IMG/VR virus record: IMGVR_UViG_3300009527_000003
Location: 1-35,899 of that record
Length of the DNA stretch: 35,899 bases
Source: a virus
Direction: 5' to 3' (one strand)
The position numbers were made by a program, and so were the translations under genes. A model generated the notes under the pieces. The model was not told the DNA's origin. It saw only the letters and a list, made by a program, of their open reading frames with translations, and searched no databases. Of this stretch, positions 2,759-35,899 are shown in pieces; position 1 is the stretch's first letter; every line of letters starts with the position of its first letter.

Positions 2759-3436
2759 ATGTTGAAATACGAACTGGAAACTGTGACCGATGACCTCGCC
2801 CCCTTCTACACGAAGGACGAAGCCACCGGGAGGTTTAGACTTCAAGCGGAGGGCGTCGTCCCTCTAACCGAGCACGAAGCCACGAAGGCCAAGCTCTCGG
2901 AGTTCAGGACGACCAACAACGCGCTGAAGAGGCAGCTTGAGGAGCTAAGCGACTTTGAAAAGGTCGTCGGCACCGATGGCAAGGTAACCAAGGACGGGGT
3001 CAAGACGACCATCGAGAACCTAGTCCAAGCACGGACCCAGCAGATGCGTCAGCAGTACGACGGCACGCTTGCTGAAAAAGAGAAGGCGCTCGTGAGTGCC
3101 GGCACCAAGCTTGGTGACCTGCTCATCTCGGACGCCGTGAAAGCCGCAGCGCTTAGCCACGGGGTGGTTGCGACGGCTGTTGATGATGTCGTGGCTCGAG
3201 CACGAGCCCAGTTCAAGGTCGATGAGGAGTTCAATGTTGTGAGTGTGACCACCAATGGCGACGCAAGCGGCAACCCCCTCACCATCGCAACCTTTGTGGC
3301 TGGTCTCAAGGAGAACGCCCCTCACCTCTTCGCTCGGAGCGAGGGGACCGGGTCCTTTATGCGCAGCCGCTCAACTTCACCCGCACAGCACGAGCGGAGT
3401 TCCCGCTCTCGTCTTGCCGACTTCGTGCGTAAATAA
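2759..3436 (+). CDS. Head scaffolding protein
   Basis: This 225-aa protein is predicted to template prohead assembly around the capsid protein and then leave. It is charged and helix-rich: an N-terminal segment, a coiled-coil-like region at about residues 35-65 (EATKAKLSEFRTTNNALKRQLEEL), a central helical domain, and a short basic Ser/Arg C-terminus ending RSRLADFVRK. A basic tail is typical of scaffolds that bind the coat protein. It lies directly between portal and major capsid genes. The ATG at 2759 follows the AGGGAG site of the leader. Its AAA-TAA end forms part of the next TAAATA promoter. Confidence 0.85.
   Translation: MLKYELETVTDDLAPFYTKDEATGRFRLQAEGVVPLTEHEATKAKLSEFRTTNNALKRQLEELSDFEKVVGTDGKVTKDGVKTTIENLVQARTQQMRQQYDGTLAEKEKALVSAGTKLGDLLISDAVKAAALSHGVVATAVDDVVARARAQFKVDEEFNVVSVTTNGDASGNPLTIATFVAGLKENAPHLFARSEGTGSFMRSRSTSPAQHERSSRSRLADFVRK
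3428..3435 (+). promoter_or_regulatory. TAAATA-class promoter upstream of major capsid gene
   Basis: CGTAAATA overlaps the last codons of the scaffold gene and lies 35 bases before the capsid ATG. A dedicated promoter here fits the high copy number needed for the capsid protein. Confidence 0.6.
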
Positions 3437-5966: not shown

Positions 5967-5974
5967 CATAAATA
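5967..5974 (+). promoter_or_regulatory. TAAATA-class promoter upstream of tail tube gene
   Basis: CATAAATA lies 29 bases before the tail tube ATG, in a 41-base gap. Placement before a high-copy structural gene matches the capsid promoter. Confidence 0.65.
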
Positions 5975-10204: not shown

Positions 10205-10722
10205 CCGTTGCACAGGACCTCCAGAAGTCAGCCCTGCCTGGGCTGGTCCAGCTCTTCACCCTCGACCTGAACCCCATCGGCGTCGCTCAGGTGTTCCACT
10301 TCACACCGACACCAAACGGGACTACGGGCACCGCCGTCTTTGGTGGCGTCACCTACACCGCCTTCCCCATCCAAGCGGAGGGCTTTGAGGTCTCTGGCGA
10401 TGGTTCAGCACCACAACCCACCCTGCGGGTCTCCAACATTACCCGTTACCTGCAGTCGGAGCTGACCGCCTACCAGGACATCGTCGGTGCCAAGGTGACC
10501 CGCACCCTGACCTTCGAGACCTACCTGGACACCGGCTCCACCCCCGACAGCTCCCAGGTCTTTGGCGTTCAGTCCTACCTCATCCAGCAGCTCGTCACCC
10601 AGAACAAGCTCGAGCTCGTCTTCCGTCTCTGCACCATCCTCGACCGCTCAACGCTGAAGCTCCCACGGGAGCAGGTGCTCCGCAAGGAGTTCCCAGGTGC
10701 AGGGTTGTTCCGCACTGAATAA
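10201..10722 (+). CDS. Minor tail protein, L-like
   Basis: The 173-aa protein resembles the phage minor tail protein L family: LPGLVQLFTLDLNPIG near the N-terminus, VFGGVTYTAFPIQAEGFEVSGDGSAP (spanning about 56-82) and a final LPREQVLRKEFPGAG. Lambda L ends in a cysteine-rich segment that binds an iron-sulphur cluster. Here the protein stops before that point and the C-terminal cysteines are missing, so the metal site is probably lost. It overlaps the M-like gene by four bases, and its TAA is part of the AATAAATA promoter. Confidence 0.82.
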   Translation: MTVAQDLQKSALPGLVQLFTLDLNPIGVAQVFHFTPTPNGTTGTAVFGGVTYTAFPIQAEGFEVSGDGSAPQPTLRVSNITRYLQSELTAYQDIVGAKVTRTLTFETYLDTGSTPDSSQVFGVQSYLIQQLVTQNKLELVFRLCTILDRSTLKLPREQVLRKEFPGAGLFRTE

Positions 10723-10725
10723 ATA
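10718..10725 (+). promoter_or_regulatory. TAAATA-class promoter upstream of K-like gene
   Basis: AATAAATA overlaps the stop of the L-like gene and lies 27 bases before the next ATG. This splits the tail-tip genes into two transcription units. Confidence 0.55.
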
Positions 10726-18752: not shown

Positions 18753-18760
18753 CATAAATA
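18753..18760 (+). promoter_or_regulatory. TAAATA-class promoter after the PRTase gene
   Basis: CATAAATA lies 21 bases before the ATG at 18782, in a 31-base gap, with CACCC following the motif. Confidence 0.65.
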
Positions 18761-18781: not shown

Positions 18782-19174
18782 ATGGCAACGAAACCTACCA
18801 ACCTGCGCCACCTGGACATCGACCAGGGCTCATCGAAGGACTTCATCTTCACCATCACGACCGATGGGGAGCCGCCGGCGCCCTTTGACCTCACCGGCTA
18901 CACCGCCCGTGCCCAGGTGCGTCGGTCGTACGGTGCCAAGGACGGCGTGCTCATCAACTGCACCCTCGCCAACGGCAAGCTGGTGCTGACGGATGTCGCC
19001 GGTGGCGTTCTGACGCTGTCGCTGGCACCTGAGGACACCTCCCTCATCCTGTTCGCCGACAAGGAGGACGCCGTCCTCGTCTGCGTCTATGACCTTGAAA
19101 TCATCTCTCCCACCGGCGATGTCTATAAGCCCGCTCGTGGCAACCTCACCCTCCACCGAGAGGTTACTCGATGA
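18782..19174 (+). CDS. Putative baseplate/fibre accessory protein, Ig-like
   Basis: The 130-aa protein reads HLDIDQGSSKDFIFTITTDG...PFDLTGYTARAQVRRSY, a pattern common to phage beta-sandwich proteins of the BppU N-domain or Ig-like type that attach fibres to the tail. The rest is strand-rich (VLTLSLAPEDTSLI, YDLEIISPTGDVYKPARGNLTL). It has its own TAAATA element and a weak GGA ribosome site. The homing endonuclease follows with ATGA overlap at 19171. Specific function is inferred from context. Confidence 0.6.
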   Translation: MATKPTNLRHLDIDQGSSKDFIFTITTDGEPPAPFDLTGYTARAQVRRSYGAKDGVLINCTLANGKLVLTDVAGGVLTLSLAPEDTSLILFADKEDAVLVCVYDLEIISPTGDVYKPARGNLTLHREVTR

Positions 19175-19803
19175 ACACGCAGGAGCGGTTCTACACCTAC
19201 CTCTATTCTGACCCATCCCGTGGGATGGAACCCATCTATGTGGGTAAAGGAACTGGACAACGGTTCAAGACACACCTGCGCAGGATTGACCACCACCCGC
19301 TCACCTACCGGCTGCGCAAGATGCGTCTGGTTGGCGTCGAGCCGGTTATTACCTTCCTATGCAAGGATGTTGATGAGGAGCTTGCCTGTCTTGTTGAGGT
19401 AGAAGCAATCGCTAAATATGGTAGAAAAGACCTCGGCAGAGGGCCGCTGCTAAACAAGGCCGATGGCGGCGGGGGTTCAACCAACCCAACACCTGAGATG
19501 CTCGCCTTGCGAGGTAAGAAAATCAGCGTTGCCAAGAAGGCAGCTGGCAAGACCTACTCTGCTGAGGAACGACAGCGCATCTCGGTGGGTAAGAAGCTCA
19601 GCAACGCGCAACGCGGTTTTCGTGGTCATCGCTTCCCTAAAGGAAGCGTGCCGCACAATAAAGTTCCAGAGAGCGTGCTCAAGCAGGTTCTCGACCTTCG
19701 TAGCCGAGGTTTAGGCTATGACGCAATAAGCGAATGCGTCGGCAAAAGCGCGAATGCGTGTGTCAAAATCTTCGCTAAGTCAAAACTTCTCACTACAAAC
19801 TAA
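19171..19803 (+). CDS. GIY-YIG homing endonuclease (first)
   Basis: The 210-aa protein has a GIY-YIG nuclease domain at residues 7-98: FYTYLYSDP for the first strand, PIYVGKGTGQRFKTHL for the second (YVG in place of YIG, with R31 and H35), a Glu in VEVEAIAKYG (about 76-78) and N95 in LLNKADGG. Downstream are NUMOD-like DNA-binding repeats (KKISVAKKAAGKTYSAEERQRISVGKKLSNAQRG) and a helix-turn-helix-like end (DLRSRGLGYDAISECVGKSANACVKIF). It is less GC-rich than its neighbours. It overlaps the previous stop by ATGA and leaves flanking structural genes intact, as free-standing homing genes do. Confidence 0.85.
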   Translation: MNTQERFYTYLYSDPSRGMEPIYVGKGTGQRFKTHLRRIDHHPLTYRLRKMRLVGVEPVITFLCKDVDEELACLVEVEAIAKYGRKDLGRGPLLNKADGGGGSTNPTPEMLALRGKKISVAKKAAGKTYSAEERQRISVGKKLSNAQRGFRGHRFPKGSVPHNKVPESVLKQVLDLRSRGLGYDAISECVGKSANACVKIFAKSKLLTTN

Positions 19804-27296: not shown

Positions 27297-27362
27297 GGTG
27301 CCCTGTCTGGTCGTCCATATAACCTTTCAGTCTAACGCAGGGCACCAACCTGCGGTGTTTTT
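27297..27362 (+). terminator. Terminator with competing upstream arm
   Basis: CGCAGG (27336-27341) pairs with CCTGCG (27349-27354), followed by GTG and five T residues: a rho-independent terminator for the late operon. The same 5' arm can pair instead with an upstream arm, GGTGCCCTG (27297-27305) against CAGGGCACC (27338-27346), which would stop the terminator forming. A second small hairpin, CCACT/AGTGG with TTTT, lies at about 27261-27286. The rest of the gap 27219-27373 holds no gene. Confidence 0.7.
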
Positions 27363-27373
27363 CCGCCTGTCCG

Positions 27374-27381
27374 TATAAATA
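27374..27381 (+). promoter_or_regulatory. TATAAATA promoter upstream of polymerase-like gene
   Basis: A perfect TATAAATA preceded by CCG and followed by CC, as at 2694. It lies 12 bases after the terminator T run and 143 bases before the start of the polymerase-like gene. Confidence 0.7.
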
Positions 27382-27388
27382 CCTTCAC

Positions 27389-27478
27389 GAACAGATTGCA
27401 GACGGGTAAGGTGGGTGGCACTACTTTAGTCCTGTTGCAACGACAGGCTCCTTCTTGTGGCCCGTCTGCAATCTGTTC
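27389..27478 (+). repeat. 18-bp inverted repeat in leader of polymerase-like gene
   Basis: GAACAGATTGCAGACGGG (27389-27406) is exactly complementary to 27461-27478. The 54-base interior contains a further hairpin, CCTGT (27431-27435) with a TGCAACG loop and ACAGG (27443-27447). The whole would fold as a long stem closing at least one inner hairpin. It begins 7 bases after the promoter core, so it would form the very 5' end of the transcript. A riboregulator or a replication origin are both possible. Confidence 0.75.
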
Positions 27479-27524
27479 CACCTTGGTTGCCGCCCCCGAG
27501 GATTTACACAAGAAGGAAATGCCT

Positions 27525-28694
27525 ATGAACTCAACCCTTACCCTGCTTAACCGAGACAACCTGCTACGGAACCCCCGGTCCCAGCGTGTCGCCGTTCGAG
27601 CGGTCGAGTGGGCATCACGCGCCCTGACGACCCTCACCCCGACCTCCATCCACAACACCAAGCTGTCCGCCATCTTCCCGAACACCCCGCTCGGGCACTG
27701 CCTCCGTGCCAACCTGTTGGTCCGACAGGGGATGTATATTCCAGGTGCGCAGTCGTTCAGCTACACCCTCAACCGACAGGGCTACGACGCCCTGGTCGCC
27801 ACACTGCTTTCGTGGAACCATACGGTGGATGCCCCAGGCCACCTTGAGCAGCTGAAGCGCCGCTTCAGTGACCAGCTCGAGACCCTCGACTTCGCCTACA
27901 CTGAGAAGAGTAATCGGTACTGGCACCCCCTGCAGAACCTCGCGCGCGCCGACAAGCAGGTCTTCTGGGCCCCCCTCCTCCCGTTCGACTACGACGCCGT
28001 CGCCTGCGCCCCGACCGTCCTCCTTCAACTGGCCCGCCGCACCGGTCTGCCGGCCGTCCTCCTCGACCCCATCCAGGCATACATCGCCGGTCGCACCGCC
28101 CTCCGCCTGCGGCTGGCGCAGGACCTCGACATCCCCGTCCAGGACGCCAAGCGGCTCATCAACTCGCTGTTCAACGGCGCCCGGCTGAGTGCCAATGCCC
28201 ACTGCGCCGCCTACCGCACCCTTGACTACGACCTCGTCAAGATGTCTCGGCTGCAGAACCTCAAGTGGGTCCGTATGCTGCGCCTGTCAGTCAAGCTTGC
28301 CTGGCGGCACATCCAGCTGGTCACCCGGGCGGAGACCAAGACATCCAAGCAGAAGTGGGGCATCTACTTCGCCGCCGAAAGGAAAATCCTCGACGCCGCT
28401 CGCAACTACCTCACGCAGACCAACAACCCGCACTTCTGCGAGCACGACGGCTTCAAGACAAAAAATCCGGTCGAACTGGACAAACTCAGCGAGTTCATCA
28501 AGCTCAACACCGGATTTGAGATTGACTACGACACACACACCACCACACACGCACACAGCTCTAATGATTTCACCAATCGGGCGGTACCGGCTGCGTCGTC
28601 CTTCGTGAAGCCATATTCGGCTGCCCAGCTGTTCGAGGTGCTCTACCCGCACCTCATCGACCCGCCCGAACGACACCTGGTCGCCACCGGCTGA
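27525..28694 (+). CDS. Compact polymerase-like protein (family A/T7-RNAP-type palm candidate)
   Basis: The 389-aa protein is the only polymerase candidate in the genome. It has, in order: RYWHPLQNLARA (131-142); a motif A-like FDYDAVACAPTVLLQLA with D155 or D157 as metal ligand; a motif B-like DAKRLINSLFNGA (207-219) with K209; an Ala/Glu-rich helix YFAAERKILDAARNYL (281-296); and a motif C-like EHDGF (306-310), followed by a second acidic patch FEIDYD. This order, spacing and the HD pair recall DNA polymerase I and single-subunit RNA polymerases, but it lacks exonuclease and most thumb sequence and is much shorter. I chose ATG 27525 with AAGGA at the right distance; an in-frame ATG at 27519 is too close to it. 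Fold and activity need a structure-based test. Confidence 0.6.
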   Translation: MNSTLTLLNRDNLLRNPRSQRVAVRAVEWASRALTTLTPTSIHNTKLSAIFPNTPLGHCLRANLLVRQGMYIPGAQSFSYTLNRQGYDALVATLLSWNHTVDAPGHLEQLKRRFSDQLETLDFAYTEKSNRYWHPLQNLARADKQVFWAPLLPFDYDAVACAPTVLLQLARRTGLPAVLLDPIQAYIAGRTALRLRLAQDLDIPVQDAKRLINSLFNGARLSANAHCAAYRTLDYDLVKMSRLQNLKWVRMLRLSVKLAWRHIQLVTRAETKTSKQKWGIYFAAERKILDAARNYLTQTNNPHFCEHDGFKTKNPVELDKLSEFIKLNTGFEIDYDTHTTTHAHSSNDFTNRAVPAASSFVKPYSAAQLFEVLYPHLIDPPERHLVATG

Positions 28695-28774: not shown

Positions 28775-28847
28775 CGTCGGTGCTTAGACTTGCACCCTGA
28801 AGTCAATAACTACGCCGTCCATATGGGTGCAAGTCTAAGCACCGACG
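28775..28847. repeat. 23-bp perfect inverted repeat
   Basis: Arms 28775-28797 and 28825-28847 are exact reverse complements (start CGTCGGTGCTTAG, ending ...CACCC and back), with a 27-base loop. The right arm can also pair with 28867-28874 (TCGTCGGT), a shorter 8-bp stem followed by TTTT, so folding can switch between a long stem and a terminator-like one. It lies in the non-coding gap 28695-28957 between the polymerase-like gene and the next promoter. Candidate roles are origin, terminator or small RNA. Confidence 0.75.
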
Positions 28848-28867
28848 AGTTCATCCTGACTTCTGTT

Positions 28868-28932
28868 CGTCGGTTTTACCCACTTTCCTGTCCGCCCATA
28901 TAAATACATTCGTATAGAGAATAACCTCCATA
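28868..28932 (+). repeat. 65-bp promoter block, copy 1
   Basis: 15 identical bases (CGTCGGTTTTACCCA), 9 variable bases, then 41 identical bases shared with 30562-30626. The block contains the TATAAATA element, and the next gene starts 26 bases after it. Confidence 0.85.
28899..28906 (+). promoter_or_regulatory. TATAAATA promoter, block copy 1
   Basis: Perfect TATAAATA followed by CATTCGTATAGAG, identical to the copy at 30593. It lies 51 bases before the ATG at 28958. Confidence 0.7.
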
Positions 28933-29298: not shown

Positions 29299-29306
29299 TA
29301 TAAATA
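29299..29306 (+). promoter_or_regulatory. TATAAATA promoter upstream of zinc-ribbon gene
   Basis: Perfect TATAAATA, 8 bases after the previous stop and 54 bases before the GTG at 29361. Confidence 0.65.
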
Positions 29307-29360: not shown

Positions 29361-29588
29361 GTGAAGAACACCGGCACAGCCCCCAACCTCAACGACCCGT
29401 TCTGGGCGAACATCAACGCCGCCCAGCAGACCGCCGCCTGCACCGGAAAGCACCGCTTCACCGACGCCCACGCCGCTCGAAAGGTCGCCGACCGCCAGCG
29501 CCGTCGCTCCGACCGAGCCATCAACACCTACGAGTGCAGCCACTGCGGCGGGTGGCACCTCGGCAACCAGACCACCACCAGGCACTGA
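29361..29588 (+). CDS. Small zinc-ribbon-like protein, 75 aa
   Basis: Starts at GTG 29361 with AAAGGA upstream. The sequence has ACTGKHRFTDAHAARKVADRQRRR followed by YECSHCGGWHLGNQ, a CxxC and His pattern common in small phage zinc proteins of about this size. Basic residues between the two metal-site halves suit nucleic-acid binding. It is in the early-looking region. A role in regulation or host takeover is inference. Confidence 0.65.
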   Translation: MKNTGTAPNLNDPFWANINAAQQTAACTGKHRFTDAHAARKVADRQRRRSDRAINTYECSHCGGWHLGNQTTTRH

Positions 29589-29980: not shown

Positions 29981-30557
29981 CCACCACGGCCGCCCCTACG
30001 AGACCCTCTCCCTCGCACCGGCCGTCGGCACCTACTCCCACCCCTACGAGGCGCTAATCTTCATCGGCGTCACCAAGAACCAGGACTTCTTCTTCGCCAA
30101 CGCCCTCAGCTCCGTCCTCGACTTCAGGTGGAGCAGGTGGTCCAAGTGGCGACATCTTCTGCAGCCCTACACCTTCCACTGCTTCAAGGTCGCCGGCTAC
30201 AAGACCCACTCCCAGTCCGGTCACGGCTTCCGCCCCCTTGAGCACATCTGCGAGTTCCCCGGCATCCGTGCCTGCCAGCTCTTCAACTACGCCTACCTGG
30301 ACCGCTGGCAGGAGTTCCACGACCTGTCGGTGGAGGCCATCACCCGCCACACCGCTGAGTTCATCGCCGCCCTTGAGGGCTTCGCCTCCCTTCAGGACGC
30401 CTACACCTCGCTGGTACAGGAGCACCTCGACCAACACCTCACCTCACCGGAGACCAGGGCCGCCCTTGCCCACGCCCTCGAGGTCACCCACCACCCGTTT
30501 GACCCACATTCCGTGCTGGACACCGACTTCTTCGGTGGCATCCTTCAACCTGAGTAA
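29955..30557 (+). CDS. Hypothetical protein, 200 aa, possible paralogue of 30650 gene
   Basis: I start it at GTG 29955 (VTQLVSTSDHHGRPYETLSL); the upstream extension of this frame is a Pro/Ser shadow of the previous gene. The sequence contains EALIFIGVTKNQDFFFANALSSVLDFRWSRWSKWRH and later CQLFNYAYLDRWQEFHD. The protein at 30650 has parallel elements in the same order (YANNLLDFFKFHKAKWQPH, LQTCNHAYWSGLRGHQD), suggesting distant paralogy. Function unknown. Confidence 0.6.
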   Translation: MTQLVSTSDHHGRPYETLSLAPAVGTYSHPYEALIFIGVTKNQDFFFANALSSVLDFRWSRWSKWRHLLQPYTFHCFKVAGYKTHSQSGHGFRPLEHICEFPGIRACQLFNYAYLDRWQEFHDLSVEAITRHTAEFIAALEGFASLQDAYTSLVQEHLDQHLTSPETRAALAHALEVTHHPFDPHSVLDTDFFGGILQPE

Positions 30558-30561
30558 AGTG

Positions 30562-30626
30562 CGTCGGTTTTACCCATCTTTTCACCCGCCCATATAAATA
30601 CATTCGTATAGAGAATAACCTCCATA
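30562..30626 (+). repeat. 65-bp promoter block, copy 2
   Basis: Same structure as 28868-28932: 15 identical bases, 9 variable, 41 identical. The flanking 23-bp inverted repeat of copy 1 is not present here. Confidence 0.85.
30593..30600 (+). promoter_or_regulatory. TATAAATA promoter, block copy 2
   Basis: Perfect TATAAATA with the same downstream CATTCGTATAGAG as copy 1, 49 bases before the ATG at 30650. Confidence 0.7.
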
Positions 30627-32208: not shown

Positions 32209-32454
32209 CAGTGCTCGACCCGGCTGCTGACCACCCTGAAGACCCACTTCGACATCTCCGTCGTCCTACTTCAGACCCCGTCCGCCGTCTGCCTGGTGCG
32301 GCGGGTCGCACGGGTCGAAGGCAGGGGTCGCCGCAACGGTCGCTTCAAACACGACCGAGACTACCTCAGTGACCCCAAGTTGAAGCCCCAGCTCGCCGCC
32401 GCCTTCTACGAGGACCTCAACCTGCGGGTGGCGACAGTGTGCCCACCCCTATAA
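32209..32454 (+). other. In-frame continuation after TGA, 81 codons
   Basis: This frame reads QCSTRLLTTLKTHFDISVVL, then LQTPSAVCLVRRVARVEGRG and DYLSDPKLKPQLAAAFYEDL, which looks like real protein, in contrast to the other frames. There is no usable start codon or ribosome site near its beginning, and it is in frame with the 31510 gene across TGA-CAG. It is either the 3' part of an interrupted gene or a readthrough extension. Its stop overlaps the TATAAATA promoter at 32450. Confidence 0.6.
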
Positions 32455-32457
32455 ATA
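32450..32457 (+). promoter_or_regulatory. TATAAATA promoter upstream of endonuclease I remnant
   Basis: Perfect TATAAATA followed by CCAC, the same as at 2694. It would once have driven the native endonuclease I gene and may still feed the inserted cassette. Confidence 0.65.
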
Positions 32458-32511: not shown

Positions 32512-32658
32512 GTCACCATTACCCCCTCACCGACCCGCACCAAGCGGTCCCGCCTCGAGGTTGAGTTCCACCGTAAGCACCCGGCCGCTCTCTACGAGCC
32601 TGTTCGCCTGCCCTACACGGTGACCCACCACTACACGCCCAATGTCGGTTCTCTGTAA
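32512..32658 (+). pseudogene. 5' remnant of native endonuclease I gene
   Basis: The 48 codons end ...SRLEVEFHRKHPAALYEP, then VRLPYTVTHHYTPNVGSL and a stop. This aligns with residues 7-37 of the complete protein at 33375 (SNLEVKFANRFPSAKYEV, VRLPYVVTHNYVPD), with about 18 of 31 residues identical. It breaks off exactly at the catalytic Asp, which reads Asn here, so the three later active-site residues are gone. No normal start codon is present: GTC stands where the start is expected, 11 bases after the conserved leader 12-mer. The native gene seems to have been cut and replaced. Confidence 0.85.
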
Positions 32659-32661
32659 ATA
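32654..32661 (+). promoter_or_regulatory. TAAATA-class promoter at cassette start
   Basis: TGTAAATA overlaps the remnant stop and lies 27 bases before the homing endonuclease ATG, followed by GAGCACAACTACTC. Confidence 0.55.
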
Positions 32662-32688: not shown

Positions 32689-33378
32689 ATGACATTCTGC
32701 ACCTACATCACATCACACCCTGCCGGGTATTACTACATCGGCAAGGCAATGATGGCGCGCATCAAACAAGGCTACAAGGGTTCTGGCAAGAAGCTTCATT
32801 CGTACTTCAAGAAGTACCCGAAGAACCAATGGAGCACCTCTATTCTCGCTGTCTTCGACACACCACAAGAGGCTTATGCCGACGAAGGCGTTCGCGTGAC
32901 GGTTCAAACTCTCAAGGACCCATTGTGTCTGAACCTCATTCCAGGCGGAACCGGGGTGCCTATGTGGAAGCACAATGAACAAACGAAAGCCGTCATCAAG
33001 AAGTTCGCCATCGAAAATCAAGCCAGCCTACAATACCGAGCCGTAATGTCTGCTTCTGTTCGTGCTGCTCTCAACACACCCGAGGTGAAGGCAAAACTAG
33101 TGGCTGGACAACGGTGGCAAAAAACAGACACCGAGAAGGTGAAGGCACGTGCTGAAAGTGCAAGACAAACCTTTGCCACACTAGAATATTTCGAGAAGGC
33201 ATCAAAGGCTCAAAAAAAGGCAGCAGCCTCTGGCGAGGCTCGTGAGAAGAAGCGCAAAGCGGGAGCCGCTTCAATGGCAAACCAACCAATCGTTCAATGC
33301 CCAACATGCCATCGCTCAGGCAAATCTCCTCTCATGAAACGCTGGCACTTTCAAAACTGCAAATGGGGCAACAAATGA
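32689..33378 (+). CDS. GIY-YIG homing endonuclease (second)
   Basis: The 229-aa protein has a GIY-YIG domain at residues 4-90: TYITSHPAGYYYIGKA, R24, YKGSGKKLHSYFKKY and E68 in EAYADEG. A Lys/Ala-rich DNA-binding linker follows, and a C-terminal zinc finger CPTCHRSGKSPLMKRWHFQ with a final Cys. This is a Seg/I-TevI-like layout. GC is clearly lower than in the bulk. The ATG follows the cassette promoter in the context ACCACTATG. It sits exactly where the native endonuclease I gene is cut and ends ATGA into the complete endonuclease I gene, which fits a homing element that targets that gene. Confidence 0.9.
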   Translation: MTFCTYITSHPAGYYYIGKAMMARIKQGYKGSGKKLHSYFKKYPKNQWSTSILAVFDTPQEAYADEGVRVTVQTLKDPLCLNLIPGGTGVPMWKHNEQTKAVIKKFAIENQASLQYRAVMSASVRAALNTPEVKAKLVAGQRWQKTDTEKVKARAESARQTFATLEYFEKASKAQKKAAASGEAREKKRKAGAASMANQPIVQCPTCHRSGKSPLMKRWHFQNCKWGNK

Positions 33379-35776: not shown

Positions 35777-35899
35777 ACAGATGGCAGTTCGTCCCTACAC
35801 CTGGAAGATTTCGCCGGAGCGCCAGGCGGAGCTGTTCAAGCAACGCTCTGAGAATATGATGCGAGGCAAGGCGCTCGCCGAGCAGCGGGCGGCCGGCAC
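35777..35899. repeat. Direct terminal repeat, right copy
   Basis: Exact copy of 1-123, 123 bases. It contains the 5' part of the 51-aa gene (ATG 35781), which continues at the left end. Confidence 0.95.
35781..35899 (+). CDS. 5' part of the 51-aa protein (wraps to position 5)
   Basis: Partial copy of the small gene at 5-160, cut by the end of the window. The GGAG site at 35770-35773 belongs to this start. Confidence 0.8.
   Translation, partial: MAVRPYTWKISPERQAELFKQRSENMMRGKALAEQRAAG

Follow-up and report, generated by a model that had tools for sequence, protein, structure and literature searches.

Across otherwise unrelated phages, a TAAATA promoter signal tracks the gene for a minimal family-A polymerase. 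One such gene, encoding a protein of 389 residues, lies in the 35,899-base stretch of DNA analysed here, an entire IMG/VR virus record that we refer to as the window. We have next to no doubt that this protein is a polymerase. The explanation that we somewhat favour, for which there is no biochemistry, is that it works as a minimal RNA polymerase of one subunit and recognises (A/C)TAAATA promoters, its own at 27374 included. The link between TAAATA and the polymerase gene is new in this analysis; the description of the TV-Pol polymerases, with which the protein is compared below, dates from 2008.

A family-A polymerase gene and its relatives

The window is a 36-kb siphophage-like genome that carries all its major genes on the + strand. 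Because its 123-base ends (1–123 and 35777–35899) are identical, the record is probably a complete genome, or else the repeat reflects circularity of the assembly. PHROG matches identify the large terminase (157), portal (1462), major head protein (3471), a tail/NlpC-like protein (10753), endolysin (26136), an endonuclease (33297), a ParB-like/methyltransferase fusion (33749) and the small terminase (35300). They also identify two homing-endonuclease-like ORFs (19171–19803 and 32689–33378) within this one 36-kb phage genome. PHROG and Pfam profile searches recognised no other polymerase, helicase or primase in the window. The 389-residue protein is its sole recognised replication or transcription enzyme, in agreement with the original prediction of a single polymerase-like gene in a phage poor in replication genes.

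The polymerase gene (P0001) occupies 27525–28694 on the + strand, with a second in-frame ATG at 27519 as a possible upstream start; its assignment as a TV-Pol-like family-A polymerase rests on the ORF, 44 homologues and AlphaFold, Foldseek and VIA-align comparisons. The protein contains motif A (D157), motif B (K209...G218-A219) and motif C (E306-H307-D308-G309), with motifs B and C located 52 and 151 residues from motif A; the corresponding distances in Pol I are 53 and 177 residues. Fifteen residues (R131, W133, H134, Q137, Y156, D157, R194, K209, W260, Y281, E285, F304, H307, D308 and G309) are identical in all 44 homologues, a set that includes the family-A Arg hairpin, the motif A Asp, the motif B Lys and the motif C His-Asp. 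Judged by conservation, the motifs are not a product of chance, since R131, D157, K209, H307, D308 and G309 are invariant. The R131-x-W-H-P-x-Q137-N segment matches the Arg β-hairpin of family A, an element that the original prediction had not named, and R131 is also found in three outgroup TV-Pol-like proteins. D157 and D308 are the two catalytic Asp residues of the palm, the strands of which are seen in the AlphaFold model. R194 is situated 15 residues before K209, and there is no Arg at K-4 (the RxxxK of TV-Pol fingers); in a Polaromonas relative, too, the residue at K-4 is not Arg, and the one that matches R194 is. Only ~125 residues precede the palm hairpin, and the exonuclease domain is absent. 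The predicted order of motifs A, B and C in a real ORF without an exonuclease is thus upheld, with its key residues conserved throughout, except that D155, which had been proposed for mutation, is not conserved.

AlphaFold models (mean pLDDT 82 with 17 homologues and 86 with 36 homologues; core above 90) have a family-A fingers and palm fold without an exonuclease. A small N-terminal domain spans residues 1–99, and the C-terminal 45 residues have little ordered structure. In Foldseek searches of the PDB, the top matches were all family-A polymerases (probability 1.00, E ~2e-3), DNA polymerases ranking above RNA polymerases, and no E-value passes 1e-3. VIA-align Z scores, which cover model residues ~100–343, are 12.7 for Pol theta, 12.6 for T7 DNA polymerase and 11.2 for yeast mitochondrial RNA polymerase. 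Virophage proteins, themselves TV-Pols, are among the high-ranking viral models, and structural searches of BFVD list barbavirus and Aeromonas 2L372X proteins at E ~2e-3. A fold without a palm, or with scattered motifs, would have refuted the prediction; instead, two models match family-A polymerases.

Searches of Pfam, PHROGs and PDB sequences with P0001 gave no match, and hits to aromatic amino-acid hydroxylases (E 0.05–1) were rejected as chance. Relatives turned up by degenerate-pattern scans, in ~40 contigs of IMG/VR and in the genomes of three bacteria (Roseateles, Caballeronia and a Legionella MAG), are mostly ~350–400 residues long and ~30% identical to the query. From the Roseateles and Caballeronia homologues, Burkholderiales would be a first guess for the phage host; 1 of 300 Burkholderiales chromosomes has the gene. 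The Pfam model PF00476 (DNA_pol_A) had no match in 23 polymerase-bearing records, with positive controls; a weak match in record G334 sits in a tape-measure-like protein and was rejected. A search with PF00940 (RNA_pol) gave no match, but no control genome matched either, and it is hence uninformative. The clade of the 389-residue protein is named by no known family and has no model in Pfam or PHROGs as searched.

The closest homologue, ~40% identical, is found in the chromosome of Roseateles depolymerans (L045, 8228–11059), directly downstream of a 530-residue serine recombinase and with its own TATAAATA and hairpin leader; this locus looks like a small mobile element or a remnant of one. Another close homologue is carried by a 101-kb contig (G316, also L023) together with a DnaB helicase and no TAAATA excess, and the gene may have another role there.

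Profile comparisons connect the family to the TV-Pols. The 506-residue MAP_030 protein of Microcystis phage Ma-LMM01 is encoded beside a transposase and fits the element described in the 2008 TV-Pol work, although that it is the same gene is only inferred. A tblastn search from MAP_030 led to a Polaromonas plasmid protein (WP_181374945) encoded beside a recombinase. An HMM built from the 44 members aligns with the polymerase domain of this Polaromonas protein through all motifs at E=2.7e-26 (best reversed decoy, 0.25) and matches, at 1.4e-11, a 760-residue protein encoded by Desulfovibrio phage SRB7757; for MAP_030 the value is only 0.56. The hhalign probability is 97 for an alignment of the Ma-LMM01 and Polaromonas TV-Pols, 0.5 for divPolA2 (7 members), 0.3 for T7 RNA polymerase and 1.1 for T7 DNA polymerase; the two T7 queries were single sequences, making the comparison rough. 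On this evidence, we place the family of the 389-residue protein (below, the 389-residue family) as a clade within or next to the TV-Pol group. A single-subunit enzyme of this size had been expected to be new or little described, which holds for the clade, unnamed in known families, and not for the broad TV-Pol group, described in 2008 (PMC2579912). The SRB7757 protein (L002, 2137–4419), which is unannotated and has motifs A, B and C, comes from an isolated 142-kb phage, a possible experimental model for a TV-Pol-like protein.

Proposed TAAATA promoters and the polymerase gene

Allowing at most one mismatch, TATAAATAC matches the window 9 times (0.32 expected), always on the + strand and mostly just before genes. 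TAAATA cores on this strand lie upstream of the portal gene (1432–1437), the major head protein gene (3430–3435), the ORFs at 2759 (2696–2701), 6004 (5969–5974), 10753 (10720–10725) and 18782 (18755–18760), an ORF near 29361 (29301–29306, within TATAAATAA) and the homing-endonuclease-like ORF at 32689 (32656–32661), with a further core at 32452–32457. Two more (28901–28906 and 30595–30600) are contained in the copies of an 83-nt repeat (28850–28932 and 30544–30626). These copies are 84% identical, with an identical core of ~40 nt, and span two TATAAATAC promoters; their conservation reaches beyond the promoter core. A possible likeness of the repeat core to T7 promoters was dropped, as only TAAATA is conserved in the set. 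The window-type promoter is TATAAATAC, and the promoter of the G317 type is GATAAATAG.

The proposed promoter of the polymerase gene (27374–27382, +) is one of the nine TATAAATAC matches. Directly upstream is a terminator-like stem (27336–27354) with a T run (27336–27361, +), a consensus pattern match only. Downstream, a leader hairpin (27389–27478, +) has a perfect 18-bp stem (27389–27406 with 27461–27478) and a 54-nt loop, and the stem begins 7 nt after TAAATA, at the inferred +1. The element of its own and the elaborate leader that had been ascribed to this gene are therefore both present. The Roseateles locus has a single [AC]TAAATA in 16.5 kb (61% GC): TATAAATAG, 139 nt upstream of the homologue and followed by a perfect long stem; in a second locus (L022), CTAAATAC precedes a 17-bp stem; a third (L024) has a 22-bp stem with no TAAATA seen. 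The stems of these three leaders (17–22 bp) are unrelated in sequence and equivalent in geometry, and none of 624 other upstream regions has a stem longer than 14 bp. In three of the four leaders, the stem starts 4–7 nt after TAAATA, where leaderless genes also place +1. The hairpin leader may stabilise or regulate the polymerase mRNA, a role that is not established; an Rfam search gave no match. Sigma-70-like scores are only slightly better upstream of polymerase genes (p 0.003–0.01), too weak a signal to claim early, host-driven expression of the polymerase. Just downstream of the gene is a perfect 23-bp inverted repeat with a 27-nt loop and no T run (28775–28847).

Across the whole family, ATAAATA (72 versus 14.7) and CTAAATA (42 versus 7.5) are the 7-mers with the strongest enrichment in the 80 nt that precede genes. 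TAAATA stands exactly 4 or 5 nt before an ATG 37 times, most neighbouring spacings occurring ~2–4 times. From sequence alone, this spacing suggests leaderless mRNAs that start at the ATG, which would put the core at −11 to −6. The remaining sites are 20–60 nt upstream of genes with ribosome-binding sites. Apparent leaderless genes (TAAATA-N5-ATG; for example, L006 7753, L009 6469 and L010 14327), several of them near terminase genes, often come right after T-rich terminator-like stretches.

Whole-genome motif counts are uninformative in AT-rich genomes; thus, we used upstream regions and composition-matched hexamers, comparing in each record the genes with TAAATA in the preceding 60 nt with those for the 14 other permutations of the same letters. 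TAAATA ranks strictly first in 18 of 23 polymerase-bearing records (GC 35–61%; 202 genes against a permutation mean of 75) and in none of 24 terminase relatives without the gene (48 against 39.9). The Fisher p value of 7e-9 is indicative only, as the records are related and partly incomplete. Genes preceded by TAAATA-N4/5-ATG number 34 in the polymerase records (2.6 expected) and 3 in the terminase relatives (1.4 expected), and segments of T7, Ma-LMM01 and Vibrio phage 1.063 have no TAAATA excess (14 versus 13.8). A name-blind run over 1294 hexamers also put TAAATA on top in the polymerase group, with the Shine–Dalgarno-like TAAGGA as runner-up (10/23); the top words in the terminase relatives were Shine–Dalgarno-like. 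TAAATA does not come first in 5 of the 23 records, and G316 and G320 show no clear excess. The word was first seen in loci that overlap the test genomes; a further 12 records taken alone give 7/12. In an early pooled test, 78 short terminase-kin fragments had some ATAAATA excess (54 versus 18.4), and some of these may be pieces of polymerase-bearing phages; longer terminase-kin records have little or no TAAATA excess.

No protein family but the polymerase occurs in each of the 23 records, the terminase being found in 19 and the next family in 10, and the window shares the polymerase alone with G305, G306, G315, G318 and G322. Most records are incomplete contigs, which makes gene absence in the comparison set uncertain. 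Since gene and promoter co-occur and no other family is found in every record, the polymerase is the simplest candidate for the reader of TAAATA. That it might be the missing promoter reader was part of the original prediction; the co-occurrence across unrelated phages supports it, and whether the protein synthesises RNA or DNA has not been shown.

Candidate readers of TAAATA

In the mechanism that we prefer, the 389-residue TV-Pol-like polymerase would act as a phage single-subunit RNA polymerase. It would bind promoters whose core is (A/C)TAAATA, with RNA beginning ~5–7 nt downstream at a purine. Most phage genes would be transcribed by it, several of them into leaderless mRNAs; transcription of its own gene would begin from TATAAATAC at 27374 and pass through the structured leader. 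Promoter recognition by this enzyme, its synthesis of RNA and the position of the start sites are inferred only. T7 RNA polymerase has Gly and Met at the positions of Pol I E710 and F762. These two Pol I residues function in ribonucleotide exclusion, and the TV-Pol CcPol keeps both and prefers dNTPs (PMC7581432). In the 389-residue family, the E710 position (motif A +5) is Ala in 43 of 44 homologues and the F762 position (motif B K+4) is Asn in 38 of 44. Replacement of the predicted ribose-gate residues permits rNTP use but does not prove it. Evidence against an RNA polymerase comes from the spacing, which is not that of T7-like enzymes, leaderless starts having the core at about −11 to −6, from the negligible hhalign score with the single T7 RNA polymerase sequence, and from CcPol, the sole biochemically studied TV-Pol, which makes DNA (PMC7581432).

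The protein could instead be a TV-Pol primase-polymerase that primes and/or copies the phage DNA, with TAAATA read by another factor linked to the same module; we regard this as possible but unlikely. The D5 helicases and recombinases encoded beside TV-Pols led to the prediction that these enzymes are prim-pols, and linkage to D5 helicase or resolvase/integrase is usual but not universal (PMC2579912); together with its SSB partner, CcPol acts as a DNA primase (PMC7581432, PMC10061031). No replication enzyme besides this protein was recognised in the window, and the Roseateles homologue adjoins a serine recombinase, as in TV-Pol transposons. However, D5 helicase (D5_N), SF2 helicase and Pfam DNA_pol_A were found in none of the 23 records and DnaB in one only, both dNTP-selecting residues are lost, and the association between gene and promoter would be left unexplained.

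T4 late promoters have their core at −11 to −6 and are read by the host RNA polymerase with the sigma-like gp55. For this register, a sigma factor is no worse a fit than a T7-like enzyme, and an unrecognised gp55-like protein could direct the host RNA polymerase to TAAATA, the polymerase gene being linked to the promoter by shared module ancestry only. The T4 promoters (TATAAATA) have the same distance to the start site, and gp55-like proteins are small and diverge fast enough that one could escape a shared-gene search. Nevertheless, we consider this improbable: terminase aside, no second family occurs in more than 10 of the 23 records, and no sigma-like PHROG match was found among the window genes searched. 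An inactive or repurposed palm-fold protein, for example with an anti-defence or regulatory function, would be compatible with the absence of any demonstrated activity and with the existence of divergent family-A phage proteins of unknown role (divPolA2, PMC11348598), but the catalytic residues are all invariant in 44 of 44 members of a broad family only ~30% identical, and we give this idea hardly any weight. The T4-late register, the ease with which a divergent sigma factor could be missed, the behaviour of G316 and G320, and the DNA-making CcPol together keep our confidence in the polymerase as promoter reader only a little above even.

TAAATA is common to most phages that carry the gene and missing in relatives without it, so these enzymes may be among the smallest phage RNA polymerases. 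A broader proposal, on which we are evenly divided, is that they constitute widespread, unrecognised phage RNA polymerases of ~350–400 residues, derived from or sister to TV-Pols, that by themselves recognise the short TAAATA promoter, give many small tailed phages transcription independent of host sigma factors, are the smallest known promoter-specific RNA polymerases and link transposon prim-pols to T7-type RNA polymerases. Should the enzyme read TAAATA, promoter recognition, melting and initiation would be accomplished in fewer than 390 residues that lack the promoter-binding domain found at the N-terminus of T7 RNA polymerase. It would illustrate a possible route from a primase-like family-A core to transcription, offer biotechnology a compact orthogonal polymerase–promoter pair and account for how many uncultured phages express their genes. 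Even as a replicase, it would represent a clade without a Pfam or PHROGs model (as searched) in phages otherwise without replication genes.

Comparison with known polymerases and promoters

T7-like RNA polymerases and N4 RNAPII (gp15–gp16) provide a working analogy, with a small residue at motif A +5 and short phage-specific promoters; T7 RNA polymerase, however, has 883 residues and N4 RNAPII is a heterodimer that needs gp2 (PMC4496689), and no sequence match to the 389-residue family came out of the comparisons made, which for T7 rest on a single sequence. The T4 late promoter resembles TAAATA in core sequence and in distance to the start site, but is served by gp55 and the host RNA polymerase, whereas no gp55 is recognised in the window.

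The divPolA2 proteins of Rheinheimera and Vibrio phages (Yutin 2024) are, likewise, divergent phage family-A proteins of ~430 residues without an exonuclease. They accompany a regular PolB in large phages and have been suggested as possible RNA polymerases (PMC11348598), but had no detectable profile similarity to the 389-residue family in the hhalign comparison with 7 members (probability 0.5). The barbavirus and Aeromonas 2L372X proteins listed by structure at E ~2e-3 bear on this comparison. CcPol-MP, the SCCmec PolA–SSB primase, is also a stand-alone family-A polymerase on a mobile element with no working exonuclease; it retains the E710 and F762 equivalents and uses dNTPs (PMC7581432), whereas the 389-residue family has Ala and Asn.

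The closest likeness by profile is to the TV-Pols, which Iyer, Abhiman and Aravind recognised in 2008 in transposons and viruses as minimal polymerases of superfamily A; stand-alone forms are known (PMC2579912). Both have the family-A core, an invariant Arg hairpin with LQN, a YD..C motif A, a K...GA motif B, an HDG motif C and a T-G near the C-terminus. The 389-residue family differs in being shorter (~350–400 versus ~500 residues), in having Ala rather than His at motif A +5, and in its occurrence in tailed phages without D5 helicase, where it is linked to the TAAATA promoter.
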